NCBI GenBank assembly: GCA_037893245.1
Contig: JBAIAA010000119.1
Span: 62,001-126,000, forward strand
Reading direction: 5' to 3'
Length of the DNA: 64,000 nt
From: Crossaster papposus
Lineage: Eukaryota; Echinodermata; Asteroidea; Velatida; Solasteridae
The notes under the pieces: generated by a model
Seen by the model: the letters and a program-made list of their open reading frames with translations, nothing else
Databases searched by the model: none
What the model was told of the DNA's origin: nothing
Shown here: in pieces, positions 1-44,400 of the stretch
Position numbering within the stretch: position 1 is the stretch's first letter
How the letters are laid out: every line of letters begins with the position of its first letter
Made by a program: the position numbers and the translations under genes

Positions 1-3000
1 GATGTCTAGCCACATACGCAGCAGATAAATGCACACAAGGCTATAAGGGACGTGTGTCGTATTCAGTGAACCTATCACAATAGATGTCTAGCCACATACG
101 CAGCAGATAAATGCACACAAGGCTATGGGGACGTGTGTTGTATTCAGTGAACCTATCACAATAGATGTCTGGCCACATACGTGGCAGATAAATGCACACA
201 AGGCTATGGGGACATGTGTCGTATTCAGTGAACCTATCACAATAGATGTCTAGCCACATACGCAGCAGATAAATGCACACAAGGCTATGGGGACGTGTGT
301 CGTATTCAGTGAACCTATCACAATAGATGTCTAGCCACATACGCAGCAGATAAATGCACACAAGGCTATGGGGACGTGTGTCGTATTCAGTGAACCTATC
401 ACAATAGATGTCTAGCCACATACGCGGCAGAGTAAATGCACACAAGGCTATGGGGACGTGTGTCGTATTCAGTGAACCTATCACAATAGATGTCTAGCCA
501 CATACGTGGCAGATAAATGCACACAAGGCTATGGGGACGTGTGTCGTATTCAGTGAACCTATCACAATAGATGTCTAGCCACATACGCAGCAGATAAATG
601 CACACAGGGCTATGGGGGACGTGTGTCGTATTCAGTGAACCTATCACAATAGATGTCTAGCCACATACGCAGCAGATAAATGCACACAAGGCTAAGAGGG
701 ACGTGTGTCGTATTCAGTGAACCTATCACAATAGATGTCTAGCCACATACGTGGCAGATAAATGCACACAAGGCTATAAGGGACGTGTGTCGTATTCAGT
801 GAACCTATCACAATAGATGTCTAGCCACATACGCGGCAGAGTAAATGCACACAAGGCTATGGGGACGTGTGTCGTATTCAGTGAACCTATCACAATAGAT
901 GTCTAGCCACATACGCAGCAGATAAATGCACACAAGGCTATGGGGACGTGTGTCGTATTCAGTGAACCTATCACAATAGATGTCTAGCCACATACACAGC
1001 AGATAAATGCACACAAGGCTATGGGGACGTGTGTCGTATTCAGTGAACCTATCACAATAGATGTCTAGCCACATACGCAGCAGATAAATGCACACAAGGC
1101 TATGGGGACGTGTGTCGTATTCAGTGAACCTATCACAATAGATGTCTAGCCACATACGCGGCAGAGTAAATGCACACAAGGCTATGGGGACGTGTGTCGT
1201 ATTCAGTGAACCTATCACAATAGATGTCTAGCCACATACGCGGCAGAGTAAATGCACACAAGGCTATGGGGACGTGTGTCGTATTCAGTGAACCTATCAC
1301 AATAGATGTCTAGCCACATACGCGGCAGAGTAAATGCACACAAGGCTATGGGGACGTGTGTCGTATTCAGTGAACCTATCACAATAGATGTCTAGCCACA
1401 TACGCAGCAGATAAATGCACACAAGGCTATGGGGACGTGTGTCGTATTCAGTGAACCTATCACAATAGATGTCTAGCCACATACGAGGCAGATAAATGCA
1501 CACAAGGCTATGGGGACGTGTGTCGTATTCAGTGAACCTATCACAATAGATGTCTAGCCACATACGCGGCAGAGTAAATGCACACAAGGCTATGGGGACG
1601 TGTGTCGTATTCAGTGAACCTATCACAATAGATGTCTAGCCACATACGCGGCAGAGTAAATGCACACAAGGCTATGGGGACGTGTGTCGTATTCAGTGAA
1701 CCTATCACAATAGATGTCTAGCCACATACGCGGCAGAGTAAATGCACACAAGGCTATGGGGACGTGTGTCGTATTCAGTGAACCTATCACAATAGATGTC
1801 TAGCCACATACGCGGCAGAGTAAATGCACACAAGGCTATGGGGACGTGTGTCGTATTCAGTGAACCTATCACAATAGATGTCTAGCCACATACGCGGCAG
1901 AGTAAATGCACACAAGGCTATGGGGACGTGTGTCGTATTCAGTGAACCTATCACAATAGATGTCTAGCCACATACGTGGCAGATAAATGCACACAAGGCT
2001 ATGGGGACGTGTGTCGTATTCAGTGAACCTATCACAATAGATGTCTAGCCACATACGCAGCAGATAAATGCACACAAGGCTATGGGGACGTGTGTCGTAT
2101 TCAGTAAACCTATCACAATAGATGTCTAGCCACATACGCAGCAGATAAATGCACACAAGGCTATGGGGACGTGTGTCGTATTCAGTGAACCTATCACAAT
2201 AGATGTCTAGCCACATACGTGGCAGATAAATGCACACAAGGCTATGGGGACGTGTGTCGTATTCAGTGAACCTATCACAATAGATGTCTAGCCACATACG
2301 TGGCAGATAAATGCACACAAGGCTGTAAGGGACGTGTGTCGTATTCAGTGAACCTATCACAATAGATGTCTAGCCACATACGCAGCAGATAAATGCACAC
2401 AAGGCTATGGGGACGTGTGTCGTATTCAGTAAACCTATCACAATAGATGTCTAGCCACATACGCAGCAGATAAATGCACACAAGGCTATGGGGACGTGTG
2501 TCGTATTCAGTGAACCTATCACAATAGATGTCTAGCCACATACGTGGCAGATAAATGCACACAAGGCTATGGGGACGTGTGTCGTATTCAGTGAACCTAT
2601 CACAATAGATGTCTAGCCACATACGCAGCAGATAAATGCACACAAGGCTATGGGGACGTGTGTCGTATTCAGTAAACCTATCACAATAGATGTCTAGCCA
2701 CATACGCAGCAGATAAATGCACACAAGGCTATAAGGGACGTGTGTCGTATTCAGTGAACCTATCACAATAGATGTCTAGCCACATACGCAGCAGATAAAT
2801 GCACACAAGGCTATGGGGACGTGTGTCGTATTCAGTGAACCTATCACAATAGATGTCTAGCCACATACGTGGCAGATAAATGCACACAAGGCTATGGGGA
2901 CGTGTGTCGTATTCAGTGAACCTATCACAATAGATGTCTAGCCACATACGCAGCAGATAAATGCACACAGGGCTATGGGGACGTGTGTCGTATTCAGTAA

Positions 3001-6000
3001 ACCTATCACAATAGATGTCTAGCCACATACGCAGCAGATAAATGCACACAAGGCTATGGGGACGTGCGTCGTATTCAGTGAACCTATCACAATAGATGTC
3101 TAGCCACATACGCAGCAGAAAAATGCACACAAGGCTATGGGGACGTGTGTCGTATTCAGTGAACCTATCACAATAGATGTCTAGCCACATACGCAGCAGA
3201 TAAATGCACACAAGGCTATGGGGACGTGTGTCGTATTCAGTGAACCTATCACAATAGATGTCTAGCCACATACGCAGCAGATAAATGCACACAAGGCTAT
3301 GGGGACGTGTGTCGTATTCAGTGAACCTATCACAATAGATGTCTAGCCACATACGCAGCAGATAAATGCACACAAGGCTATGGGGACGTGTGTCGTATTC
3401 AGTGAACCTATCACAATAGATGTCTAGCCATACGCAGCAGATAAATGCACACAAGGCTATGGGGACGTGTGTCGTATTCAGTGAACCTATCACAATAGAT
3501 GTCTAGCCACATACGTGGCAGATAAATGCACACAAGGCTATAAGGGACGTGTGTCGTATTCAGTGAACCTATCACAATAGATGTCTAGCCACATACGTGG
3601 CAGATAAATGCACACAAGGCTATGGGGACGTGTGTCGTATTCAGTGAACCTATCACAATAGATGTCTAGCCACATACGCAGCAGATAAATGCACACAAGG
3701 CTATGGGGACGTGTGTCGTATTCAGTGAACCTATCACAATAGATGTCTAGCCACATACGCAGCAGATAAATGCACACAAGGCTATGGGGACGTGTGTCGT
3801 ATTCCGTGAACCTATCACAATAGATGTCTAGCCACATACGTGGCAGATAAATGCACACAAGGCTATAAGGGACGTGTGTCGTATTCAGTGAACCTATCAC
3901 AATAGATGTCTAGCCACATACGTGGCAGATAAATGCACACAAGGCTATGGGGACGTGTGTCGTATTCAGTGAACCTATCACAATAGATGTCTAGCCACAT
4001 ACGCAGCAGATAAATGCACACAAGGCTATGGGGACGTGTGTCGTATTCAGTGAACCTATCACAATAGATGTCTAGCCACATACGCAGCAGATAAATGCAC
4101 ACAAGGCTATGGGGACGTGTGTCGTATTCAGTGAACCTATCACAATAGATGTCTAGCCACATACGTGGCAGATAAATGCACACAAGGCTATAAGGGACGT
4201 GTGTCGTATTCAGTGAACCTATCACAATAGATGTCTAGCCACATACGTGGCAGATAAATGCACACAAGGCTATGGGGACGTGTGTCGTATTCAGTGAACC
4301 TATCACAATAGATGTCTAGCCACATACGCAGCAGATAAATGCACACAAGGCTATGGGGACGTGTGTCGTATTCAGTGAACCTATCACAATAGATGTCTAG
4401 CCACATACGCAGCAGATAAATGCACACAAGGCTATGAGGGACGTGTGTCGTATTCAGTGAACCTATCACAATAGATGTCTAGCCACATACGCAGCAGATA
4501 AATGCACACAAGGCTAAGAGGGACGTGTGTCGTATTCAGTGAACCTATCACAATAGATGTCTAGCCACATACGCAGCAGATAAATGCACACAAGGCTATG
4601 GGGACGTGTGTCGTATTCAGTGAACCTATCACAATAGATGTCTAGCCACATACGCAGCAGATAAATGCACACAAGGCTGTAAGGGACGTGTGTCGTATTC
4701 AGTGAACCTATCACAATAGATGTCTAGCCACATACGCAGCAGATAAATGCACACAAGGCTATGGGGACGTGTGTCGTATTCAGTGAACCTATCACAATAG
4801 ATGTCTAGCCACATACGTGGCAGATAAATGCACACAAGGCTATAAGGGACGTGTGTCGTATTCAGTGAACCTATCACAATAGATGTCTAGCCACATACGT
4901 GGCAGATAAATGCACACAAGGCTATGGGGACGTGTGTCGTATTCAGTGAACCTATCACAATAGATGTCTAGCCACATACGCAGCAGATAAATGCACACAA
5001 GGCTATGGGGACGTGTGTCGTATTCAGTGAACCTATCACAATAGATGTCTAGCCACATACGTGGCAGATAAATGCACACAAGGCTATAAGGGACGTGTGT
5101 CGTATTCAGTGAACCTATCACAATAGATGTCTAGCCACATACGCAGCAGATAAATGCACACAAGGCTATGGGGACGTGTGTCGTATTCAGTGAACCTATC
5201 ACAATAGATGTCTAGCCACATACGCAGCAGATAAATGCACACAAGGCTATGGGGACGTGTGTCGTATTCAGTGAACCTATCACAATAGATGTCTAGCCAC
5301 ATACGCAGCAGATAAATGCACACAAGGCTATGGGGACGTGTGTCGTATTCAGTGAACCTATCACAATAGATGTCTAGCCACATACGTGGCAGATAAATGC
5401 ACACAAGGCTATGGGGACGTGTGTCGTATTCAGTGAACCTATCACAATAGATGTCTAGCCACATACGTGGCAGATAAATGCACACAAGGCTATGAGGGAC
5501 GTGTGTCGTATTCAGTGAACCTATCACAATAGATGTCTAGCCACATACGCAGCAGATAAATGCACACAAGGCTATGGGGACGTGTGTCGTATTCAGTGAA
5601 CCTATCACAATAGATGTCTAGCCACATACGTGGCAGATAAATGCACACAAGGCTATGGGGACGTGTGTCGTATTCAGTGAACCTATCACAATAGATGTCT
5701 AGCCACATACGCAGCAGATAAATGCACACAAGGCTATGGGGACGTGTGTCGTATTCAGTGAACCTATCACAATAGATGTCTAGCCACATACGTGGCAGAT
5801 AAATGCACACAAGGCTATGAGGGACGTGTGTCGTATTCAGTGAACCTATCACAATAGATGTCTAGCCACATACGCAGCAGATAAATGCACACAAGGCTAT
5901 GGGGACGTGTGTCGTATTCAGTGAACCTATCACAATAGATGTCTAGCCACATACGTGGCAGATAAATGCACACAAGGCTATGGGGACGTGTGTCGTATTC

Positions 6001-7400
6001 AGTGAACCTATCACAATAGATGTCTAGCCACATACGCAGCAGATAAATGCACACAAGGCTATGGGGACGTGTGTCGTATTCAGTGAACCTATCACAATAG
6101 ATGTCTAGCCACATACGCAGCAGATAAATGCACACAAGGCTATGAGGGACGTGTGTCGTATTCAGTGAACCTATCACAATAGATGTCTAGCCACATACGC
6201 AGCAGATAAATGCACACAAGGCTAAGAGGGACGTGTGTCGTATTCAGTGAACCTATCACAATAGATGTCTAGCCACATACGCAGCAGATAAATGCACACA
6301 AGGCTATGGGGACGTGTGTCGTATTCAGTGAACCTATCACAATAGATGTCTAGCCACATACGTGGCAGATAAATGCACACAAGGCTATGGGGACGTGTGT
6401 CGTATTCAGTGAACCTATCACAATAGATGTCTAGCCACATACGCAGCAGATAAATGCACACAAGGCTATGGGGACGTGCGTCGTATTCAGTGAACCTATC
6501 ACAATAGATGTCTAGCCACATACGCAGCAGATAAATGCACACAAGGCTATGGGGACGTGTGTCGTATTCAGTGAACCTATCACAATAGATGTCTAGCCAC
6601 ATACGCAGCAGATAAATGCACACAAGGCTATGGGGACGTGTGTCGTATTCAGTGAACCTATCACAATAGATGTCTAGCCACATACGTGGCAGATAAATGC
6701 ACACAAGGCTGTAAGGGACGTGTGTCGTATTCAGTGAACCTATCACAATAGATGTCTAGCCACATACGTGGCAGATAAATGCACACAAGGCTATGGGGAC
6801 GTGTGTCGTATTCAGTGAACCTATCACAATAGATGTCTAGCCACATACGCAGCAGATAAATGCACACAAGGCTATGGGGACGTGTGTCGTATTCAGTGAA
6901 CCTATCACAATAGATGTCTAGCCACATACGCAGCAGATAAATGCACACAAGGCTAAGAGGGACGTGTGTCGTATTCAGTGAACCTATCACAATAGATGTC
7001 TAGCCACATACGCAGCAGATAAATGCACACAAGGCTATGGGGACGTGTGTCGTATTCAGTGAACCTATCACAATAGATGTCTAGCCACATACGTGGCAGA
7101 TAAATGCACACAAGGCTGTAAGGGACGTGTGTCGTATTCAGTGAACCTATCACAATAGATGTCTAGCCACATACGCAGCAGATAAATGCACACAAGGCTA
7201 TGGGGACGTGTGTCGTATTCAGTGAACCTATCACAATAGATGTCTAGCCACATACGTGGCAGATAAATGCACACAAGGCTATGGGGACGTGTGTCGTATT
7301 CAGTGAACCTATCACAATAGATGTCTAGCCACATACGTGGCAGATAAATGCACACAAGGCTATGGGGACGTGTGTCGTATTCAGTGAACCTATCACAATA
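1..7400. repeat. Higher-order repeat copy A of the satellite
   Basis: The order of monomer variants in this block recurs in the next block. Diagnostic rare changes repeat at fixed offsets: the GTGTTG variant near 137 recurs near 7537, the GTATTCCGTG variant near 3800 recurs near 11372, and the short TAGCCATACG unit near 3427 recurs near 10997. The left boundary is the window edge, so the true start is unknown. Confidence 0.85.
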
Positions 7401-10400
7401 GATGTCTAGCCACATACGCAGCAGATAAATGCACACAAGGCTATAAGGGACGTGTGTCGTATTCAGTGAACCTATCACAATAGATGTCTAGCCACATACG
7501 CAGCAGATAAATGCACACAAGGCTATGGGGACGTGTGTTGTATTCAGTGAACCTATCACAATAGATGTCTGGCCACATACGTGGCAGATAAATGCACACA
7601 AGGCTATGGGGACATGTGTCGTATTCAGTGAACCTATCACAATAGATGTCTAGCCACATACGCAGCAGATAAATGCACACAAGGCTATGGGGACGTGTGT
7701 CGTATTCAGTGAACCTATCACAATAGATGTCTAGCCACATACGCAGCAGATAAATGCACACAAGGCTATGGGGACGTGTGTCGTATTCAGTGAACCTATC
7801 ACAATAGATGTCTAGCCACATACGCGGCAGAGTAAATGCACACAAGGCTATGGGGACGTGTGTCGTATTCAGTGAACCTATCACAATAGATGTCTAGCCA
7901 CATACGTGGCAGATAAATGCACACAAGGCTATGGGGACGTGTGTCGTATTCAGTGAACCTATCACAATAGATGTCTAGCCACATACGCAGCAGATAAATG
8001 CACACAGGGCTATGGGGGACGTGTGTCGTATTCAGTGAACCTATCACAATAGATGTCTAGCCACATACGCAGCAGATAAATGCACACAAGGCTAAGAGGG
8101 ACGTGTGTCGTATTCAGTGAACCTATCACAATAGATGTCTAGCCACATACATGTACGTGGCAGATAAATGCACACAAGGCTATAAGGGACGTGTGTCGTA
8201 TTCAGTGAACCTATCACAATAGATGTCTAGCCACATACGCGGCAGAGTAAATGCACACAAGGCTATGGGGACGTGTGTCGTATTCAGTGAACCTATCACA
8301 ATAGATGTCTAGCCACATACGCAGCAGATAAATGCACACAAGGCTATGGGGACGTGTGTCGTATTCAGTGAACCTATCACAATAGATGTCTAGCCACATA
8401 CACAGCAGATAAATGCACACAAGGCTATGGGGACGTGTGTCGTATTCAGTGAACCTATCACAATAGATGTCTAGCCACATACGCAGCAGATAAATGCACA
8501 CAAGGCTATGGGGACGTGTGTCGTATTCAGTGAACCTATCACAATAGATGTCTAGCCACATACGCGGCAGAGTAAATGCACACAAGGCTATGGGGACGTG
8601 TGTCGTATTCAGTGAACCTATCACAATAGATGTCTAGCCACATACGCGGCAGAGTAAATGCACACAAGGCTATGGGGACGTGTGTCGTATTCAGTGAACC
8701 TATCACAATAGATGTCTAGCCACATACGCGGCAGAGTAAATGCACACAAGGCTATGGGGACGTGTGTCGTATTCAGTGAACCTATCACAATAGATGTCTA
8801 GCCACATACGCAGCAGATAAATGCACACAAGGCTATGGGGACGTGTGTCGTATTCAGTGAACCTATCACAATAGATGTCTAGCCACATACGAGGCAGATA
8901 AATGCACACAAGGCTATGGGGACGTGTGTCGTATTCAGTGAACCTATCACAATAGATGTCTAGCCACATACGCGGCAGAGTAAATGCACACAAGGCTATG
9001 GGGACGTGTGTCGTATTCAGTGAACCTATCACAATAGATGTCTAGCCACATACGCGGCAGAGTAAATGCACACAAGGCTATGGGGACGTGTGTCGTATTC
9101 AGTGAACCTATCACAATAGATGTCTAGCCACATACGCGGCAGAGTAAATGCACACAAGGCTATGGGGACGTGTGTCGTATTCAGTGAACCTATCACAATA
9201 GATGTCTAGCCACATACGCGGCAGAGTAAATGCACACAAGGCTATGGGGACGTGTGTCGTATTCAGTGAACCTATCACAATAGATGTCTAGCCACATACG
9301 CGGCAGAGTAAATGCACACAAGGCTATGGGGACGTGTGTCGTATTCAGTGAACCTATCACAATAGATGTCTAGCCACATACGTGGCAGATAAATGCACAC
9401 AAGGCTATGGGGACGTGTGTCGTATTCAGTGAACCTATCACAATAGATGTCTAGCCACATACGCAGCAGATAAATGCACACAAGGCTATGGGGACGTGTG
9501 TCGTATTCAGTAAACCTATCACAATAGATGTCTAGCCACATACGCAGCAGATAAATGCACACAAGGCTATGGGGACGTGTGTCGTATTCAGTGAACCTAT
9601 CACAATAGATGTCTAGCCACATACGTGGCAGATAAATGCACACAAGGCTATGGGGACGTGTGTCGTATTCAGTGAACCTATCACAATAGATGTCTAGCCA
9701 CATACGTGGCAGATAAATGCACACAAGGCTGTAAGGGACGTGTGTCGTATTCAGTGAACCTATCACAATAGATGTCTAGCCACATACGCAGCAGATAAAT
9801 GCACACAAGGCTATGGGGACGTGTGTCGTATTCAGTAAACCTATCACAATAGATGTCTAGCCACATACGCAGCAGATAAATGCACACAAGGCTATGGGGA
9901 CGTGTGTCGTATTCAGTGAACCTATCACAATAGATGTCTAGCCACATACGTGGCAGATAAATGCACACAAGGCTATGGGGACGTGTGTCGTATTCAGTGA
10001 ACCTATCACAATAGATGTCTAGCCACATACGCAGCAGATAAATGCACACAAGGCTATGGGGACGTGTGTCGTATTCAGTAAACCTATCACAATAGATGTC
10101 TAGCCACATACGCAGCAGATAAATGCACACAAGGCTATAAGGGACGTGTGTCGTATTCAGTGAACCTATCACAATAGATGTCTAGCCACATACGCAGCAG
10201 ATAAATGCACACAAGGCTATGGGGACGTGTGTCGTATTCAGTGAACCTATCACAATAGATGTCTAGCCACACATACGTGGCAGATAAATGCACACAAGGC
10301 TATGGGGACGTGTGTCGTATTCAGTGAACCTATCACAATAGATGTCTAGCCACATACGCAGCAGATAAATGCACACAGGGCTATGGGGACGTGTGTCGTA

Positions 10401-13400
10401 TTCAGTAAACCTATCACAATAGATGTCTAGCCACATACGCGGCAGATAAATGCACACAGGGCTATGGGGACGTGTGTCGTATTCAGTGAACCTATCACAA
10501 TAGATGTCTAGCCACATACGCAGCAGATAAATGCACACAAGGCTATGGGGACGTGTGTCGTATTCAGTGAACCTATCACAATAGATGTCTAGCCACATAC
10601 GCAGCAGATAAATGCACACAAGGCTATGGGGACGTGCGTCGTATTCAGTGAACCTATCACAATAGATGTCTAGCCACATACGCAGCAGATAAATGCACAC
10701 AAGGCTATGGGGACGTGTGTCGTATTCAGTGAACCTATCACAATAGATGTCTAGCCACATACGCAGCAGATAAATGCACACAAGGCTATGGGGACGTGTG
10801 TCGTATTCAGTGAACCTATCACAATAGATGTCTAGCCACATACGCAGCAGATAAATGCACACAAGGCTATGGGGACGTGTGTCGTATTCAGTGAACCTAT
10901 CACAATAGATGTCTAGCCACATACGCAGCAGATAAATGCACACAAGGCTATGGGGACGTGTGTCGTATTCAGTGAACCTATCACAATAGATGTCTAGCCA
11001 TACGCAGCAGATAAATGCACACAAGGCTATGGGGACGTGTGTCGTATTCAGTGAACCTATCACAATAGATGTCTATAGCCACATACGTGGCAGATAAATG
11101 CACACAAGGCTATAAGGGACGTGTGTCGTATTCAGTGAACCTATCACAATAGATGTCTAGCCACATACGTGGCAGATAAATGCACACAAGGCTATGGGGA
11201 CGTGTGTCGTATTCAGTGAACCTATCACAATAGATGTCTAGCCACATACGCAGCAGATAAATGCACACAAGGCTATGGGGACGTGTGTCGTATTCAGTGA
11301 ACCTATCACAATAGATGTCTAGCCACATACGCAGCAGATAAATGCACACAAGGCTATGGGGACGTGTGTCGTATTCCGTGAACCTATCACAATAGATGTC
11401 TAGCCACATACGTGGCAGATAAATGCACACAAGGCTATAAGGGACGTGTGTCGTATTCAGTGAACCTATCACAATAGATGTCTAGCCACATACGTGGCAG
11501 ATAAATGCACACAAGGCTATGGGGACGTGTGTCGTATTCAGTGAACCTATCACAATAGATGTCTAGCCACATACGCAGCAGATAAATGCACACAAGGCTA
11601 TGGGGACGTGTGTCGTATTCAGTGAACCTATCACAATAGATGTCTAGCCACATACGCAGCAGATAAATGCACACAAGGCTATGGGGACGTGTGTCGTATT
11701 CAGTGAACCTATCACAATAGATGTCTAGCCACATACGTGGCAGATAAATGCACACAAGGCTATAAGGGACGTGTGTCGTATTCAGTGAACCTATCACAAT
11801 AGATGTCTAGCCACATACGTGGCAGATAAATGCACACAAGGCTATGGGGACGTGTGTCGTATTCAGTGAACCTATCACAATAGATGTCTAGCCACATACG
11901 CAGCAGATAAATGCACACAAGGCTATGGGGACGTGTGTCGTATTCAGTGAACCTATCACAATAGATGTCTAGCCACATACGCAGCAGATAAATGCACACA
12001 AGGCTATGAGGGACGTGTGTCGTATTCAGTGAACCTATCACAATAGATGTCTAGCCACATACGCAGCAGATAAATGCACACAAGGCTAAGAGGGACGTGT
12101 GTCGTATTCAGTGAACCTATCACAATAGATGTCTAGCCACATACGCAGCAGATAAATGCACACAAGGCTATGGGGACGTGTGTCGTATTCAGTGAACCTA
12201 TCACAATAGATGTCTAGCCACATACGCAGCAGATAAATGCACACAAGGCTGTAAGGGACGTGTGTCGTATTCAGTGAACCTATCACAATAGATGTCTAGC
12301 CACATACGCAGCAGATAAATGCACACAAGGCTATGGGGACATGTGTCGTATTCAGTGAACCTATCACAATAGATGTCTAGCCACATACGTGGCAGATAAA
12401 TGCACACAAGGCTATAAGGGACGTGTGTCGTATTCAGTGAACCTATCACAATAGATGTCTAGCCACATACGTGGCAGATAAATGCACACAAGGCTATGGG
12501 GACGTGTGTCGTATTCAGTGAACCTATCACAATAGATGTCTAGCCACATACGCAGCAGATAAATGCACACAAGGCTATGGGGACGTGTGTCGTATTCAGT
12601 GAACCTATCACAATAGATGTCTAGCCACATACGCAGCAGATAAATGCACACAAGGCTATGGGGACGTGTGTCGTATTCAGTGAACCTATCACAATAGATG
12701 TCTAGCCACATACGTGGCAGATAAATGCACACAAGGCTATAAGGGACGTGTGTCGTATTCAGTGAACCTATCACAATAGATGTCTAGCCACATACGCAGC
12801 AGATAAATGCACACAAGGCTATGGGGACGTGTGTCGTATTCAGTGAACCTATCACAATAGATGTCTAGCCACATACGCAGCAGATAAATGCACACAAGGC
12901 TATGGGGACGTGTGTCGTATTCAGTGAACCTATCACAATAGATGTCTAGCCACATACGCAGCAGATAAATGCACACAAGGCTATGGGGACGTGTGTCGTA
13001 TTCAGTGAACCTATCACAATAGATGTCTAGCCACATACGTGGCAGATAAATGCACACAAGGCTATGGGGACGTGTGTCGTATTCAGTGAACCTATCACAA
13101 TAGATGTCTAGCCACATACGTGGCAGATAAATGCACACAAGGCTATGAGGGACGTGTGTCGTATTCAGTGAACCTATCACAATAGATGTCTAGCCACATA
13201 CGCAGCAGATAAATGCACACAAGGCTATGGGGACGTGTGTCGTATTCAGTGAACCTATCACAATAGATGTCTAGCCACATACGTGGCAGATAAATGCACA
13301 CAAGGCTATGGGGACGTGTGTCGTATTCAGTGAACCTATCACAATAGATGTCTAGCCACATACGCAGCAGATAAATGCACACAAGGCTATGGGGACGTGT

Positions 13401-14480
13401 GTCGTATTCAGTGAACCTATCACAATAGATGTCTAGCCACATACGTGGCAGATAAATGCACACAAGGCTATGAGGGACGTGTGTCGTATTCAGTGAACCT
13501 ATCACAATAGATGTCTAGCCACATACGCAGCAGATAAATGCACACAAGGCTATGGGGACGTGTGTCGTATTCAGTGAACCTATCACAATAGATGTCTAGC
13601 CACATACGTGGCAGATAAATGCACACAAGGCTATGGGGACGTGTGTCGTATTCAGTGAACCTATCACAATAGATGTCTAGCCACATACGCAGCAGATAAA
13701 TGCACACAAGGCTATGGGGACGTGTGTCGTATTCAGTGAACCTATCACAATAGATGTCTAGCCACATACGCAGCAGATAAATGCACACAAGGCTATGAGG
13801 GACGTGTGTCGTATTCAGTGAACCTATCACAATAGATGTCTAGCCACATACGCAGCAGATAAATGCACACAAGGCTAAGAGGGACGTGTGTCGTATTCAG
13901 TGAACCTATCACAATAGATGTCTAGCCACATACGCAGCAGATAAATGCACACAAGGCTATGGGGACGTGTGTCGTATTCAGTGAACCTATCACAATAGAT
14001 GTCTAGCCACATACGTGGCAGATAAATGCACACAAGGCTATGGGGACGTGTGTCGTATTCAGTGAACCTATCACAATAGATGTCTAGCCACATACGCAGC
14101 AGATAAATGCACACAAGGCTATGGGGACGTGCGTCGTATTCAGTGAACCTATCACAATAGATGTCTAGCCACATACGCAGCAGATAAATGCACACAAGGC
14201 TATGGGGACGTGTGTCGTATTCAGTGAACCTATCACAATAGATGTCTAGCCACATACGCAGCAGATAAATGCACACAAGGCTATGGGGACGTGTGTCGTA
14301 TTCAGTGAACCTATCACAATAGATGTCTAGCCACATACGCAGCAGATAAATGCACACAAGGCTATGGGGACGTGTGTCGTATTCAGTGAACCTATCACAA
14401 TAGATGTCTAGCCACATACGTGGCAGATAAATGCACACAAGGCTATAAGGGACGTGTGTCGTATTTAGTGAACCTATCAC
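7401..14480. repeat. Higher-order repeat copy B of the satellite
   Basis: This block repeats copy A monomer by monomer. The offset starts at 7400, becomes 7406 after a 6-bp insertion near 8152, about 7572 after extra sequence near 10.3-11.1 kb, 7653 after one extra monomer near 12.6 kb, and about 7734 near 14.4 kb. This points to duplication of a block of about 91 monomers followed by gain of single monomers by unequal exchange. Confidence 0.82.
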
Positions 14481-14689
14481 AATAGATGTCTAGCCACATA
14501 CGTGGCAGATAAATGCACACAAGGCTATAAGGGACGTGTGTCGTATTCAGTAAACCTATCACAATAGATGTCTAGCCACATACGCGGCAGAGTAAATGCA
14601 CACAAGGCTATGGGGACGTGTGTCGTATTCAGTGAACCTATCACAATAGATGTCTAGCCACATACGCAGCAGATAAATGCACACAAGGC

Positions 14690-15540
14690 TATGGGGACGT
14701 GTGTCGTATTCAGTGAACCTATCACAATAGATGTCTAGCCACATACGCGGCAGAGTAAATGCACACAAGGCTATGGGGACGTGTGTCGTATTCAGTGAAC
14801 CTATCACAATAGATGTCTAGCCACATACGCAGCAGATAAATGCACACAAGGCTATGGGGACGTGTGTCGTATTCAGTGAACCTATCACAATAGATGTCTA
14901 GCCACATACGCAGCAGATAAATGCACACAAGGCTATGGGGACGTGTGTCGTATTCAGTGAACCTATCACAATAGATGTCTAGCCACATACGTGGCAGATA
15001 AATGCACACAAGGCTATAAGGGACGTGTGTCGTATTCAGTGAACCTATCACAATAGATGTCTAGCCACATACGTGGCAGATAAATGCACACAAGGCTATG
15101 GGGACGTGTGTCGTATTCAGTGAACCTATCACAATAGATGTCTAGCCACATACGCAGCAGATAAATGCACACAAGGCTATGGGGACGTGTGTCGTATTCA
15201 GTGAACCTATCACAATAGATGTCTAGCCACATACGCAGCAGATAAATGCACACAAGGCTATGAGGGACGTGTGTCGTATTCAGTGAACCTATCACAATAG
15301 ATGTCTAGCCACATACGCAGCAGATAAATGCACACAAGGCTAAGAGGGACGTGTGTCGTATTCAGTGAACCTATCACAATAGATGTCTAGCCACATACGC
15401 AGCAGATAAATGCACACAAGGCTATGGGGACGTGTGTCGTATTCAGTGAACCTATCACAATAGATGTCTAGCCACATACGCAGCAGATAAATGCACACAA
15501 GGCTGTAAGGGACGTGTGTCGTATTCAGTGAACCTATCAC
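14690..15540. repeat. Third partial higher-order copy
   Basis: The variant order here matches copy A around 3863-4714 (offset 10826) and copy B around 11435-12286. It shows that part of the higher-order unit was duplicated a third time. The monomers from 15541 to 17049 follow no long block that I can match with confidence. Confidence 0.65.
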
Positions 15541-17362
15541 AATAGATGTCTAGCCACATGCGCAGCAGATAAATGCACACAAGGCTATGGGGGACGTGTG
15601 TCGTATTCAGTGAACCTATCACAATAGATGTCTAGCCACATACGTGGCAGATAAATGCACACAAGGCTATGGGGACGTGTGTCGTATTCAGTGAACCTAT
15701 CACAATAGATGTCTAGCCACATACGTGGCAGATAAATGCACACAAGGCTATGGGGACGTGTGTCGTATTCAGTGAACCTATCACAATAGATGTCTAGCCA
15801 CATACGCAGCAGATAAATGCACACAAGGCTATGGGGACGTGTGTCGTATTCAGTGAACCTATCACAATAGATGTCTAGCCACATACGCAGCAGATAAATG
15901 CACACAAGGCTATGGGGACGTGTGTCGTATTCAGTGAACCTATCACAATAGATGTCTAGCCACATACGCAGCAGATAAATGCACACAAGGCTATGAGGGA
16001 CGTGTGTCGTATTCAGTGAACCTATCACAATAGATGTCTAGCCACATACGCAGCAGATAAATGCACACAAGGCTAAGAGGGACGTGTGTCGTATTCAGTG
16101 AACCTATCACAATAGATGTCTAGCCACATACGCAGCAGATAAATGCACACAAGGCTATGGGGACGTGTGTCGTATTCAGTGAACCTATCACAATAGATGT
16201 CTAGCCACATACGCAGCAGATAAATGCACACAAGGCTATGGGGACGTGTGTCGTATTCAGTGAACCTATCACAATAGATGTCTAGCCACATACGCAGCAG
16301 ATAAATGCACACAAGGCTATGAGGGACGTGTGTCGTATTCAGTGAACCTATCACAATAGATGTCTAGCCACATACGCAGCAGATAAATGCACACAAGGCT
16401 AAGAGGGACGTGTGTCGTATTCAGTGAACCTATCACAATAGATGTCTAGCCACATACGCAGCAGATAAATGCACACAAGGCTATGGGGACGTGTGTCGTA
16501 TTCAGTGAACCTATCACAATAGATGTCTAGCCACATACGCAGCAGATAAATGCACACAAGGCTGTAAGGGACGTGTGTCGTATTCAGTGAACCTATCACA
16601 ATAGATGTCTAGCCACATACGCAGCAGATAAATGCACACAAGGCTATGAGGGACGTGTGTCGTATTCAGTAAACCTATCACAATAGATGTCTAGCCACAT
16701 ACGCAGCAGATAAATGCACACAAGGCTATGGGGACGTGTGTCGTATTCAGTGAACCTATCACAATAGATGTCTAGCCACATACGTGGCAGATAAATGCAC
16801 ACAAGGCTATGAGGGACGTGTGTCGTATTCAGTAAACCTATCACAATAGATGTCTAGCCACATACGCAGCAGATAAATGCACACAAGGCTATGGGGACGT
16901 GTGTCGTATTCAGTGAACCTATCACAATAGATGTCTAGCCACATACGTGGCAGATAAATGCACACAAGGCTATGAGGGACGTGTGTCGTATTCAGTAAAC
17001 CTCTCACAATAGATGTCTGGCCACAAACGCAGCAGATAAATGCACACAATCCCGATTTGCTACTTTGAATAATACGTTCAAAGTTAATTGGTTTAGTCTT
17101 TGTAAATAATTGACCGTATCATTGTTACTAAAAAAACTTGTAATTGTTAACTTAGCACACGAATCACACCAGGAAATGACTTGTACGAAACAAAGGTTGA
17201 GAGAACTTTACTGGTGGCCATAATGGATTAACATGTTGAAACAGTGGTTGAATCATGTCAATACAATGACAAAAGTATTAAGCAAGGAATTAGTCCTTTA
17301 TTTTCAGTAGAGTACAAACCATGGAGTAAACCTGCAATGGATAGTGTAGGGCCTTTTGTTAA

Positions 17363-32400: not shown

Positions 32401-35400
32401 AGACGGACAGACAGATAGACGGACAGACAGAAGTGATACAAAACCTCCGGCATCAGAGATGGGCAGAGGTAAACAATAACAATAACAACCCATCTAATGA
32501 ACCCGCTCATTGGGTAGCGGTATCTGTGGTTTCAATGACTACCCACCTCTTTCAACAGGTTGTTCCTCCTCCGTTTCCGGTGTAGGTTGGCATGGTGCCA
32601 GCCGATTCTCCTTCATAAACACCCCAAAGTCGGTGATACGATAGTCAGTCACCCTTCCCCCACACCCCTCACTGATAGATGGTGGATCTTCTAGGCTAGA
32701 CCTAGCTGTAGCCAAGCAGTGTAGGAAGATCTCTCCACCGTGGCTAGCCAGCATGTGGGAGATCAACTTGGTGCCTGTTTTGCGGGGTTGTTCCAACATC
32801 ACCTGACGGCCGTTTAGTAGGAAGTTTGTAAGGCACACTGATGGACGGCTGTTAACCTGATATGAAGGCAACGGGAAAATAACAGGTAACAAAGAAAGCT
32901 AAAAAGGGTAATGCTGAACGATAATAGCAAGGAAAAGCCCCATTCTGCCTAGATAGAATAAGGGCAACTTTGTGGGTGGACTCCACACATACATTTTGAT
33001 GATTTTCACACAAATGATCAAGCTTTTTCCGATCTACACGATGGTAAAAAAAGCTGAGCTATAATTAAAGATACTGTAAAACTGTTTTTTTTCTGGTGTT
33101 TTGGGTTAGGTAGTTTGCCATTCTTTTTTAATTAAGTATTTTGCAACCCAACAGACCAAATACCACCCCCCCCCCCTCCTCCCTCCCTAAAAGGTAGTTA
33201 TTTACCCCTATTTGGGGTTATGGGGAATTTGATAAAAACAGAAAAACAATCTGAATAAAATGGCCAATTGGTGGTTTTGGTGTTTTTTCTGGTTTACAAT
33301 CATTTTACCATTTTTCTTTTTCACACTTCACTCCTTCAGGGTGCACACCTACTGACAAAGCCCAAATATCCAACTGCAGCATAATGGCTGCACAAGGCAC
33401 TATATCAGTATCACCCCTGTTAATTCCAAAGACCAGCTCAACTCGTGACAATTTACAAGCTCAATGATGTCAATATGGTGAAAGGAAACTCAAATCGCCC
33501 ACTCTCACCGTGAAGCAGGCGAAGTGGAAAAGCCACCTTGTGTAAAATATTTGATAAACTTGAAAAGGTTAAACTCACTCCAACTGGTGACACTCTGTAG
33601 GCCCCCATGCAGTGAAGTAACTCTGGGTAAAACAGAGAAAAGGTACAGAGAGAAAATTAGTTGAGTCTAAAATGAGTATACACAGTATTTATACCATATC
33701 TCAATCAGGAGCAAAACCCAATATTGAACTTTTTAAGAAACCACTAAAAACACACCTGTTCCGGGAATTGTTTACGTAATCCTATATAAGTTTGCTAAGC
33801 TACATGTATTATTGATTTTAAAGGAAGTCATTGTAATCCTCAAATTGTGTATATCAGATGTAAGATGTAAAGCGCATTGGGTGTTTTCCAAGTTCAGAAA
33901 TGCGCTATAAAAGAATGTATTATCATTATTATTATTATTAACCTAACTCCCCAGGGTATTTTGTCTAGAAACACTGCCAGATGCAGCAACATGCAACATT
34001 TGTCAAAATATCAGGTCAGCAAGATAGTATTACTCTCTGGTGACTTAGTGACTGTAGCTACGGGTCCCTTGACGAATATAACAATGGTATTACCACCTTA
34101 CCTACAGAGCTAGACCTTGGCTGACACCATTTCAGCAGGATAGTATTACTCTCTGGTGACTTAGTGACTGTAGCTACGGGTCCCTTGGTGAATATAACCA
34201 TGGTATTACCACCTTACCTACAGAGCTAGACCTTGGCTGACACCATTTCAGCAGGATAGTATTACTCTCTGGTGACTTAGTGACCGTAGCTACGGGTCCC
34301 TTGGTGAATATAACCATGGTATTACCACCTTACCTACAGAGCTAGACCTTGGCTGACACCATTTCAGCAGGATAGTATTACTCTCTGGTGACTTAGTGAC
34401 CGTAGCTACGGGTCCCTTGGTGAATATAACCATGGTATTACCACCTTACCTACAGAGCTAGACCTTGGCTGACACCATTTCAGCAGGATAGTATTACTCT
34501 CTGGTGACTTAGTGACCGTAGCTACGGGTCCCTTGGTGAATATAACCATGGTATTACCACCTTACCTACAGAGCTAGACCTTGGCTGACACCATTTCAGC
34601 AGGATAGTATTACTCTCTGGTGACTTATATGACTGTAGCTACGGGTCCCTTGGTGAATATAACCATGGTATTACCACCTTACCTACAGAGCTAGACCTTG
34701 GCTGACACCATTTCAGCAGGATAGTATTGCTCTCTGGTGACTTAGTGACTGTAGCTACTAAGGATGTGACCTTTAAACGTTTAAACGTGTAAACGTCAAC
34801 AAAACCAAATCCGTTTAGAATTTTTTTCAAACGCTTAAACGGAACTCGAATAAAAAATAAATGGACCTTCCATTTACGCCATACCCTCAAGTTTTATTCA
34901 CGAAGAATTTACTTTCTTCAAACATCTATTTATTTTAGAAAGCATTTGTAATGCCTGTAGTACTTGGTCATGTTCCAATAAGATTAATCAGATACTTTTC
35001 TCAATGACCAGCAGCTGCCGGTATCTATTGTGCCCATGATGATGATTATACATGTCCACGCCTTGTTAATTTTTTTCCCAGTAACGGCGTATTGAAAACA
35101 TCAAACACATGTACACATGTGTTTGATGTTTTCAATACGCCGCTGCTGGGAAAAAAATAAACAGGCGTGGATGGCGTCTTTCTCCGAGGGCTATTCAGAT
35201 TAAACTACTAAGTTTTCAAACAATTCTGAGTCTCTCGTATTTCTTTATTTTTCTGTGAAGTTGGAACTTAAATTTGCTTAAATCACCAGTCGGCGTGTTT
35301 TGCAGTAATCAAACAAATGCGTTATTTAAAACAATGTATCTGTGTCGCTTATTAAGATCGGCTTGGGCTGCAAGTGCAAACACCACTGTTCCCTTACAAA

Positions 35401-38400
35401 AAACAATTCGACGGATAAAATATTCTTTAGATCGTAGAACGGGTACCGCTGGGAGTGACATATCAGAATACTTGTGGAATGGGGATGTGTAAACTTTAAA
35501 ATTAGTTTTTGAAGAGTGATATAAATGTAGAGTTAAGCTTGCCTTGGGCGATACTGCTTTTTTTCATCCACGATATATCGTCAAAAATATATCGCGATAT
35601 TCGATGATATCGCGATTAATTTGTGACGTCAATAAAAAATCAACACTTCAGCGCCAACAACCACAGAAATAGTCTCACAAAGTGCGTCGCATTTTTTTAC
35701 AAGAAACATAACGGCTACCAACCGCAGGATCGGGAGCTGTGGAGAGAACCTGCCGCTCTGGCCTACTATTAACCACATCACAAAGGATTATGCCGACTGA
35801 AGTAAAACTGCAGAATTGTTTTTTGATTGGTCTATGAACGGCAGTTTGTTCAACCACAGGAACAACCCGAGCCCGAACCACCAATAAGATTCGTTGTCCG
35901 CTTCAGGAAGACTACATTAATAAAGACACTGATGACGAAGTCGGCGAACTTCCAAGAGCTCCCCGTTGTCTATTCTTCACTGAGTTCATCAGCCCGGCCG
36001 TCACTGTTAACGGGTTTCTCCTTTTTCTTTCCACTAGCCGGCCAGATCAGTAATGTTGACTTTTGACTAGCCCGCCAGCATTTTTCAGTGGTCGGCATGT
36101 TTTTTTTCACCTTTTAGGCTCCCATCCCAAGCCTATTGAAATTCCAAAGTGATGGCAGGCCGCATGTTGGTCCGCTTGCTACAATGTTATACAATTTGTA
36201 GGTCAGCTGTCAATCATTGTCTGGATTTCTTGCCCCTACTTGGAATATAATCGTATTATTATTTACCCCTGAAAACTGTTGGAATTTTTTTTGGAGTTTA
36301 TTCAAACAAGTCTTTAAGTACCCTATCTCTTGTTTTATATAAAAACAAGGCAAATTACATAATTAGCCTTAGGAATTATTTGTTTGTAGGACTAGGGTTT
36401 CGTAAATAAACAGGCTCAGGTTTTAATACATCTTAATACATTTTGTATATACATATCGTAAATCGTTTAAGAACTGGTATCGCGATTTTCGATAATATCG
36501 CGGTATCGCCCAAGCTTAAGTAGAGTTTTCGCCATTTATCTGGGTGTTTTGTTGTTGCAAGTAATAAACACAAAGTTATAGTTTCCAAGTTCAAACCCTG
36601 TATTTATTTCTATCCAAATTGATGTCGACTATTTAATCACCATTGACGATTCTGCGACATCTCCCCCGTAAACAATATTGTGGTTCGAAAAGAATTGTAT
36701 ACTTATTTAAGAAAATTGTTAAAATGTTTCTATCATCTGCTGGAAAATATGTTTCTCTTATTTTTCCGATACAGTTTAAGGGTTCCCCAGTCTTAAAAAA
36801 ATCTCGGCCCCCAAAAGAATATTTCTCCAGGCTCCAGAGAATGATTGACAGCCCCATTGTCCAATTTGATACATTATATCTCTTGTTTATACAAACCTAT
36901 TTACAAGGTGACCGAACTTTGAGGACTGGCGTTCGTAGATAAATGTATACCAGCAGTACTCGCTGGAATGCTGCAGCTATCGCGAAATTCGTGAGGGTAA
37001 CGTTTTTTATTTTTTATTTTTTATTTTTTATTTTTAATCGTAGCTAAAAAATAAATAAATAAACGATCTCCCTAAGGCTGGTCTGGACATTCCTTGAAAT
37101 GACACTTGATTTGACAGCACTTGCAGGTGATGCTTCTTGAAATGTTTAGCCTTCAAAGAACATAGAAAAAATGGTGTTAAGTGTACACAATGTATACAAA
37201 CAAACGCGACCGCAGTTACGCAAATAGACCGGGACAGGCGGCAGCCTTTTAAAGTTTTCAATAAACGTTTAAACGTTTAAACGTTACGGGAAAAGTTTGC
37301 TAAACGTTTACAAAATTAAACGTAGATTCACATCCTTAGTAGCTACGGGTCCCTTGGTAGATATAACCATGGTATTACCACCTTACCTACAGAGCTAGAC
37401 CTTGGCTGACACCATTTCAGCAGGATAGTATTGCTCTCTGGTGACTTAGTGACTGTAGCTACGGGTCCCTTGGTAGATATAACCATCGTGTTGGAGGGTT
37501 CTGGTTCCGGTTGGTTGGTCATGAGAGACTCTAGTTTCCGCAGTTCAGCATGTGCTTCCTTTAGATGAAGGAGTTCCACGTCATAGTTGGCTGAACTCAT
37601 GGCATTTTGCTCCTCCTGGAATGAGAGAAGCAAAATAAAATTTGATAGTATAACTGCAAAAATATATCGTTTATTACGGATTTACCTAATATATCCGTCT
37701 GTGGCAGTACATTTAGGGAAAATTATCACTCGTACTATTAACAAAACTAACAAAAAGTGTTCTTGAATTGGTCAACATGTCTGCTGAAATGCCAAAGTTG
37801 TCTTTCCTTTTAACCAGTTAACGTCAGATGCAGTGTATACAAGCAAAATTTGTACAGAATTTAAAGCGGATGAAGGATAAACACGTTACGACTAAGGTCG
37901 GAAATATTGGTCAGCGACAGGCTCGCAGCAAGAGAGGTCTGAAATATCAGGGTGTGCTACCCACGGATGCCGGCCTGAACTCGTCTTGGATCGAGTTTTG
38001 TGAAAAACAATCCTGTTCCTGGGCATGGTAAATGTCAAAATCATCTTGGCGCGAGCTGGTTAAGTGTATAATCTTGTTTCTTAACTGCAATCTCAAGAAA
38101 TCCTTGATTTGGAAAATTTTATTGAAATATGGAAGGCTTTACCTTCATTGGTATTCCTGTTACGGTGGTGATAGCCAGGTCGTAGTGTTTCTGTGCGATG
38201 ACAGAGAGTTTGTTGGCAAGGTGACGGCCGGCCTTAGCAGAGTGGACCTCAGCTGTCAGGTGTGGGGACATGGGAGCAGGGGACCGGTCTTTGATCCCTG
38301 CTTCCTTATTGGTCGGCAGTATGTTAATCAGGGTTAAATCGCAGTGTGCGATCGGTAAAAGGCTGTAGCAACAAAAAGGTTTTAAAAAAATTGTTGTAAA

Positions 38401-41400: not shown

Positions 41401-44400
41401 TTGACGGACGTGAGGCATATGATGCGCCCTCTATTGATGACCTTTTCCTCGTCACCATCCTCATTCATTAGCGTCTGTGCCACCAACTGATGATCCGTTC
41501 CTTCCGTCAATAACTCTACAGCAGCAGACAGACCATTCATGATGCTAGCATCCATGTTCTTAGATGAACGGAGTGGACCTAGAGCTGCCAGAGCTGGCAT
41601 CAACTACAAGGTAGAAAAGAAACAATTGTAGGATCAACTACATGGTAAAAAAGAGACAATTGTAGGATCAACTACATTCTTGCTCTTGTTTACACTCAAT
41701 GCACTTCAATGGTCACCCAACAATATTTGTTGGCATGGGCCTCCAACGCACTCCAAGGATCAGGAATGCCATAGGAAACTGCAGGTCAACTGGGTCACGC
41801 TATGAGGCCATCGTGTATTACACTGATAAGCAAAGCCATATGCCCATTTATTAACTACAGAAGTGCCTTTCACTGCACATGCAAAGAATCCTCCAGTGCA
41901 CTGCAGCTGGAGTGCATTGGCCATATTAACCCTAACCCTGCCAAGCACAGCACAGTGCATCATGTAAAGATAAGTCTGGTGCACTTTGATGCATTTAGTT
42001 GTCAACACCAGTGTATAAACAACTACAGTCTAAAACTATTGAGAATTAGTCCCCATTGAACAATGCCAGAGATGTATTCTGCTGCGTTGGGTGGCCACAG
42101 ACTCTGAGGCAGTTTGACCTTGAGATGTCGGACCAGATTGCTGCACTGAGCAGGGGTTGTCACTTTTACAAACGAGGCCCTTTGCTGCATCTGGAAGGGT
42201 TTCTAGTAGGGCTGTGCAACGGAACCGGGTACCCGAGTGCTCATCCGTTGATGTCAGGAACCGGTTCCAGATTATGGAATTCAGTACCCATAACCAACTT
42301 TACAAACTACATACAGTAGTAACTTTTAAGACATTAAACATATGAACGGATAAAAGCAAAAGGTTTGAATGTCATTTGCTGGGAATTTTCAAAATGAAAC
42401 CAGGTTACATAGGAAACAATTTGTTTTAAATTGATTATAATCGTGAATTTGCAGTTTACGCCCTAATTAACCCTAACCTTCCAGGATATTTTGGCTAGAA
42501 ACCCTGCCAGACGCATCAGATTGTTACATTGACTTGTGTGCAGAGTGCAGCAAGGTCAAGCAGTCACCACAGATGCACTGTGCTGGGTCTGGCAGGGTTA
42601 GGGTTAAGGCAAAGCTCACTGTAAACACTTCCATCTTGCTGTATTAACTGATGTGGCAGCATTATACTGCAGATCTGTACATATAAGCGGAAATGAAACT
42701 TCTGAGATTGTTGGGGTTGGCTTCTTTATCGGGTATCCGGGTACCCATGTTTTTTTGTGATCGGGTACCCGGTTCCCAAACTACCCGTAAATGCACACCC
42801 CTAGTTTCCATTCAAAATACCCTGGAGGGTTAGGGTTTCAGACCTTTCCCAGCAATTGCTGTACAATTAGTCATGTATCTTACGTTTGCCGTATTCTGAT
42901 CATCCTGTGACCAGGTGTTTAGAGGTCTTGCCTGCGTGTCACTGGCCACTACACAAATCTGAAGAAGAAAAAAACCAAACTAGACATGTGTTTGTGGACA
43001 AACACAGAGCTGTTTCGAGTGTCTAAAATTACTTTCAATATGTGTGTGGTGGTCTTTTGTGTGTGCCAAGTCTCAAGTCGATCAGATTTACTAAAGTGTC
43101 AAAGGCAATAGTCTAAAGAAAAACGTGTACAAAACCTATGGGAAAAAAATAGAAACTTTAACGTGACGCCGCGTGACCTTGAATGACGTAATCGTGCCGA
43201 ATTTCTTCTAGGGCCGTATGTTGATGGTGGTCTAAGTGTGTGCCAAGTCTCAAGTCGATCAGATTTACTAAAGTGTCAAAGTCAATAGTCTAAAGAAAAA
43301 TGTGTACAAAACCAATGGGAGAAAAATGTGAACCTTTAATGTGACGTCACGTGACCTTGAATGACGCAATCGTGCCGAATTTCTTTCAGAAACATCTGGG
43401 GGTGGTGTTCTAAGTGTATGCCAAGTTTCAAGTCGGTCGGATTTACCGAAGTGCCAAAGTCAATAGTCTGAAGAAAAACGTGTACAAAACCTATGGGTAA
43501 AATTTAACCTTTAACGTGACGTCACGTGACCTTGAATGACGCAATCGAGCCAAATTTCTTCTAGGACCATCTGTGGATGGATGTCTAAGTGTATACCAAG
43601 TCTCAAGTCGATTGGGTTTACCAAAGTGCCAAAGTGTATTGGCAGAACAAACGTGTGTAAATCCTATGGGTAAAAACACTGAAAGTGGAAAAAAAAAAAA
43701 GGAAAAAAAAAAAAAAAAAGAAAAAAAAAAACTTTAACGAAAACAAAAGCTGTTTCGGTGAAAAACCGAAACAGCTAACAATATGAAGCTCAGTGTTATC
43801 ATAGAGGATCCTGCTGCCACATCAGTGGTTGTGTACAAAGTCTATGGAGATCGAGTCAAGAATATTCAAAAGTTTTTTAACAAAAGCAAAAGAGCCTGTC
43901 CCCATAACGGGGGGTGGGTGCCTATACCTACATGTACCGGTATGCCAAAATAAAACAGGCCTTGCACTGTGACACAACTATTCCTAAATGCAAATGTTAT
44001 GCCATCAAGCACAACGAGCCGGAAGTCAGGAATTCTGATTTATATGAATATATAAATCAGAATATATGTGCTGGGGTGAATTTTTCAATATTGGTGGGGT
44101 TGTTTTTTGAAAAAAGGAAACATGAAACTGTTAATCTTTCACACAGTGACGAAAAACTAAAATTCAAAAGAGTACAAAAAAGGATTGTTAACTTCATCCG
44201 AGTTTGATCCTTGTCCAATGATTACTATGTAAGTTATTAAATAATGAAGTCCAGAAATGTCTGTATTTGACACATTGCTTTTCTTATGCCTGTACTTTTC
44301 CAGTATTACCATACCAAGCTTCCATTGCCACCCCTTTGCACTAAAGTTACTGTTGTTCAAGACTGTTCTGCCAAGTATCAACAGTGTGCTTTTTAACGAC

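Follow-up and report, generated by a model that had tools for sequence, protein, structure and literature searches.

A homogenised minisatellite over an exon/intron border of INTS13, split by a hAT-like element, in Crossaster papposus

Near-identical copies of the end of a coding exon, most of them with the exon's own 5' splice site, can stand in tandem in the very intron that follows it. Such border repeats are natural tests of how splicing chooses one among identical donors. One of them lies in Crossaster papposus, in a window of 64,000 nucleotides (the whole stretch of DNA that was analysed), and the question it raises is whether the repeated donors serve as a regulatory switch or whether the array is a by-product of repeat turnover that leaves with its intron. 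A sequence-only reading of the window had proposed the switch as a possibility.

The INTS13 border and its tandem copies

The gene is INTS13, on the minus strand. A profile search of the genome (1.02 Gb in 1841 contigs) with Pfam PF10221 (Mat89Bb) returned eight exon matches at E ≤1, every one within the 64-kb window, and a single INTS13 locus was found in the assembly. Three joined exons score 253 bits in Pfam. The joined exons also align with the INTS13 of a solved structure (chain 8rbx_m), which we take to be human, and cross the border between exon '6' and the next exon without a gap; the query translation has one mistyped residue, two exons beyond that border. Because this alignment is gap-free, the donor at 37386 and the acceptor at 33622 are right, and the sequence-only reading, whose exon numbering we keep, had named both the gene and these two sites correctly. 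The features of the locus, in gene-strand order, are as follows.

37387..37615, minus strand: INTS13 exon '6', 229 nt long; the repeat unit takes its exonic part from the final 100 nt (37387-37486)
37371..37386, minus strand: the 16 nt of intron that belong to the repeat unit, beginning with the true 5' splice site (first base of the donor at 37386)
37339..37370, minus strand: proximal piece of U1, identical to the exon; ends in a target-site copy, GTAGCTAC (37339-37346)
34759..37338, no strand assigned: hAT-like element, 2580 bp, with the 11-bp terminal inverted repeat TAAGGATGTGA; splits U1
34667..34758, minus strand: distal piece of U1; target-site copy at 34751-34758, donor at 34682
34550..34666, minus strand: U2, 117 bp; donor at 34565
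34202..34549, minus strand: U3, U4 and U5, 116 bp each and identical; donors at 34449, 34333 and 34217
34086..34201, minus strand: U6, 116 bp; donor at 34101; one difference from U3-U5
34016..34085, minus strand: U7, a 70-bp terminal fragment with no donor, more diverged
33579..33622, minus strand: next exon, 44 nt; acceptor CCCAG/AGTTAC, 33622 being the first exon base
starting at 32856, minus strand: the exon after the 44-nt exon

Tandem Repeats Finder (TRF) reports the 116-bp array at 34016-34758, with 6.4 copies and 98% matches. One unit consists of 100 nt from the end of exon '6' and 16 nt of intron, and the donor CTGTAG/GTAAGG at 37386 has six further copies in the array; the order on the gene strand is exon copy, split U1, then U2 to U7. 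The array and the content of its units, the 3' part of the exon with the donor TAG/GTAAGG, are thus as first described. Its extent and the number of donors are different. What had been given as one array from 34025 to 37500 is interrupted in its first unit by the 2580-bp element, which that reading had overlooked; seven units are present, as proposed, but the last of them lacks a donor, which leaves six in the array and, with the true one, seven equivalent donors in all instead of eight.

The proposal that part of an exon and its 5' splice site were amplified, and the units homogenised, is supported. U1 is identical to the exon at 116 of 116 positions, U3 to U5 are identical to one another, and U2 to U7 have three differences from the exon in common: one is synonymous, and the other two, neighbours of each other, turn an S into an F. 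U1 keeps the states of the exon and not those of U2-U7, and divergence is greatest in U7, the terminal fragment. This pattern suggests either sequence exchange between the exon and U1 or a recent separation of the two, with a homogenisation of the inner units among themselves.

No second copy of the unit was found in a search of the same genome with positions 37300-37500 (40 scored of 94 candidates); elsewhere, no match goes beyond query positions 1-51, which correspond to the end of the inserted element. With no other copy among those scored, an origin of the unit by dispersal or processing was rejected. The intron of the array also contains a dispersed repeat (33725-33941) that recurs, at 83-96% similarity, in many parts of the genome (40 scored of 566 candidates), and an 81-bp satellite of about 209 copies, with 97% matches, occupies positions 1-17049, from the first base of the window.

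Transposable elements of the hAT superfamily have short terminal inverted repeats and produce 8-bp target-site duplications. The element in U1 has both: its ends are TAAGGATGTGA and TCACATCCTTA, and the 8-bp duplication GTAGCTAC stands on both sides. Six other copies, aligned over all 2580 positions, are 96.9-98.4% identical to the INTS13 copy, and 8-bp duplications are visible in the INTS13 copy and in five of these six (the exception being L035). No open reading frame above 99 aa, and hence no intact transposase, was found in the element, which is therefore at most a non-autonomous member. Since unit U1 is split, the insertion is presumably later than the origin of U1.

The fate of the array in splicing

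With considerable confidence, we read the locus as a border minisatellite. A 116-bp segment over the border of exon 6 and intron 6 would have been duplicated in tandem, and the repeat then expanded and homogenised within the intron; later, the hAT-like element would have entered the first unit. Splicing would join the true donor at 37386 to 33622 and remove the array and the element together as intron. Minisatellite turnover would then most probably have produced the array as a homogenised by-product, young in appearance and silent in splicing. Two observations count against this account. The array ends inside a unit, and simple tandem duplication needs a later deletion to explain it. The array donors also equal the true donor by sequence: all seven have the same 9-mer, so that the claim of equivalent donors holds for the bare sequence, which is silent on use, and of the 248 intronic GT sites that were scored the six array donors are the best, with small matrices built from INTS13 itself (8 acceptors and 9 donors).

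The alternative that survives best, though unlikely, is a cassette (poison) exon between exons 6 and 7, bounded by a 3' splice site of the element and an array donor. The antisense element has acceptor-like sites at 35142, 37150 and 37043 with scores of 11.2, 10.5 and 9.6; the eight acceptors of INTS13 score 10.8-16.7, so that these candidates match the weaker real ones, on a matrix that is drawn from those eight sites only and is here scoring the sequences it was trained on. The site at 35142 is part of an inverted repeat whose arms measure 49 nt. Together with the donor at 34682, a site at 34844 of lower score (5.7) delimits an open in-frame exon of 162 nt; however, it is the only open one among 21 acceptor-donor combinations, 15 of which stop within 7 codons, 3 after 46 and 2 after 68, and 162 open nucleotides partly copied from a coding exon are by our own estimate not improbable by chance. 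Going further, one may imagine the birth of an exon, with a 3' splice site from the element, and with donors and exon-derived sequence from the border repeat, by which INTS13 gains a regulated cassette. This we hold to be very unlikely. Were it true, the cassette would be either an in-frame insert of 162 nt or a decay-inducing exon, and border repeats would generally supply the lineage with new exons.

Less probable still is the donor switch itself, in which array donors lengthen exon '6' and thereby lead to a truncated or decayed INTS13. The identity of the seven 9-mers speaks for it, as does the fate of the reading frame: read-through past exon '6' meets a TAG at 37345-37343, in U1, after 14 codons, for all six array donors. 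Against it stands the length of the exon required. Every array donor is 2.7-3.3 kb further downstream than the true one, and use of any of the six adds 2704-3285 nt, which makes an exon '6' of 2933-3514 nt that contains the whole hAT-like element. The switch had been derived from an insertion of 116n bases that shifts the frame. Such an insertion does not arise, because the element puts 2.7-3.3 kb before the array donors, and the frame is irrelevant, because read-through stops after the same 14 codons whichever donor is used; the proposed switch is left unsupported. The lancelet border repeats discussed below also weigh against it, being reported not to disturb regular splicing, though cryptic use was considered possible there. 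The unit at 34102-34217, the one that was translated in all frames, has stops in all three; given these and the read-through stop, nothing suggests that the array was kept as coding sequence. The idea that the array is an assembly artefact draws on the proneness of tandem repeats to error, and is hardly credible for an array of less than 0.8 kb whose units have ordered private differences and one of which is interrupted by an element whose target duplication is clean.

Likeness to known border repeats

Tandem repeats of exon/intron borders are known from lancelets as mirages. PMC3087553 describes cases in globin genes and cites earlier ones in Adh3 and other loci. In BflGb9 the 3' border of an exon is duplicated with a unit of 157 bp; in BflGb6 the inner units are under concerted evolution, from which the boundaries of the cluster are excluded; and two haplotypes have 6 and 3 units (PMC3087553). 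RT-PCR suggests that the globin repeats are without interference with regular splicing, and the AG/GT signals in many lancelet repeats could be cryptic splice sites (PMC3087553). A second report adds PGBD5 as a lancelet mirage and states that the Adh and troponin C repeats generate no aberrant mRNAs (PMC3902484).

The INTS13 array fits the structural description of a mirage. Like the lancelet repeats, it is composed of minisatellite-like tandem units that cross an exon/intron border (100 + 16 nt) and carry the splice signal, here as six further donors; and, as in BflGb6, inner units are homogenised (U3=U4=U5) while the edge is excluded, U7 being diverged. It differs from them in its gene, in its host, an echinoderm where every case in those two reports is from a lancelet, and in the hAT-like element that splits it. 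Apparently, then, it is a border minisatellite of a known kind, outside lancelets. No border repeat from an echinoderm was evident in the literature as judged from search results, which is a statement on those results and not a claim of absence from print.

Two other systems invite comparison. Intron gain by tandem duplication, under the AGGT model and with a case in potato RdRp (PMC4974935), likewise involves tandem duplication over an exon/intron border that carries AG/GT; unlike that model, the AG/GT sites of the INTS13 units score poorly as acceptors (-3.9). For earthworm metallothionein, duplications of the fourth exon that the transcript lacks are mentioned, and so are intronic minisatellites (PMC12783039). 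Recursive splicing at the AG/GT of the units was also considered and judged weak, these sites ranking 151 and 155-160 of 227 as acceptors.

Border repeats elsewhere, and the assembly

Seventeen of the INTS13 borders, 8 of them acceptors and 9 donors, were compared with 4 kb on either side and with 20 shuffles; small exons that may lie between 44862 and 41606 are outside this set. Clear copies exist for two of them, the donor at 37386 (30/30) and the acceptor at 41603 (29/34), while for the remaining 15 the best match is at or below the shuffle maximum. The second case is a short repeat of its own.

41599..41677, minus strand: second INTS13 border repeat (TRF), with a 34-bp unit that holds a pyrimidine tract, the AG and the first bases of the exon; acceptor 41603 copied at 41637

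The copy at 41637 scores 29/34, against 21 for the best of 20 shuffles; the next-best place, 38371, scores 22, one above the shuffle maximum. As the INTS13 array was picked for being striking, only a sample from outside the gene bears on frequency. This sample, small and not random, comprises 35 kinase-domain exon hits at 30 loci, hand-chosen from 134 matches, mostly for short open frames; repeats were sought only where they touch the domain hit ±40 bp. Three of the 35 pass the repeat filter and one is a border duplication: at L063 (1213-1419), a 113-bp unit is present in 1.8 copies, and a presumed acceptor, placed by eye, recurs together with about 50 nt of kinase exon. L066 and L075 were rejected as border duplications (a 12-bp minisatellite near the exon; a weak match about 560 bp away). 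Applied to INTS13 as a control, the same filter flags one of eight exon hits and misses the acceptor repeat at 41603, and it therefore under-detects. Arrays of period at least 20 are present in two of four 10-kb stretches, too few to generalise on the minisatellite load of the whole genome.

By sequence, then, similar border repeats appear to occur elsewhere in the Crossaster papposus genome. Two such repeats in INTS13 and a third in a small sample suggest a spread wider than lancelets and one open to systematic survey, by which the idea that border repeats seed new introns or exons would become testable.

Some other features of the assembly were seen in passing. Kinase-like open frames form tandem clusters, spaced by about 6.7 kb, on contigs G000:C701, C282 and C359. 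Contig G000:C8, of more than 5.2 Mb, looks like a bacterial chromosome, from a symbiont or a contaminant: it holds three of the four COX1 matches, one of them in an open frame of 682 aa, and at least 15 Helicase_C matches, each within a long open frame. Contig C1841 (16,330 bp) looks like a mitochondrial genome, with tRNAs and with genes named by eye from translations: COX1, ND4L, COX2, ATP6, COX3, ND3, ND4, ND5, ND6 (on the opposite strand) and CYTB, in that order, and ND2 and ND1 on the opposite strand. Its COX1 has AAA at positions that are usually Asn (STNHKDIG, LTDRN) and ATA at positions that are usually Ile, which fits NCBI table 9; one AAA stands where Lys is usual (SGKKEP), against that table. 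ND4L between COX1 and COX2, together with the table 9 code, are presumably echinoderm marks, and the inverted ND1 and ND2 recall, we presume, sea stars or brittle stars. Layout and code thus suggest an echinoderm, C1841 being assumed to come from the same animal as the window.
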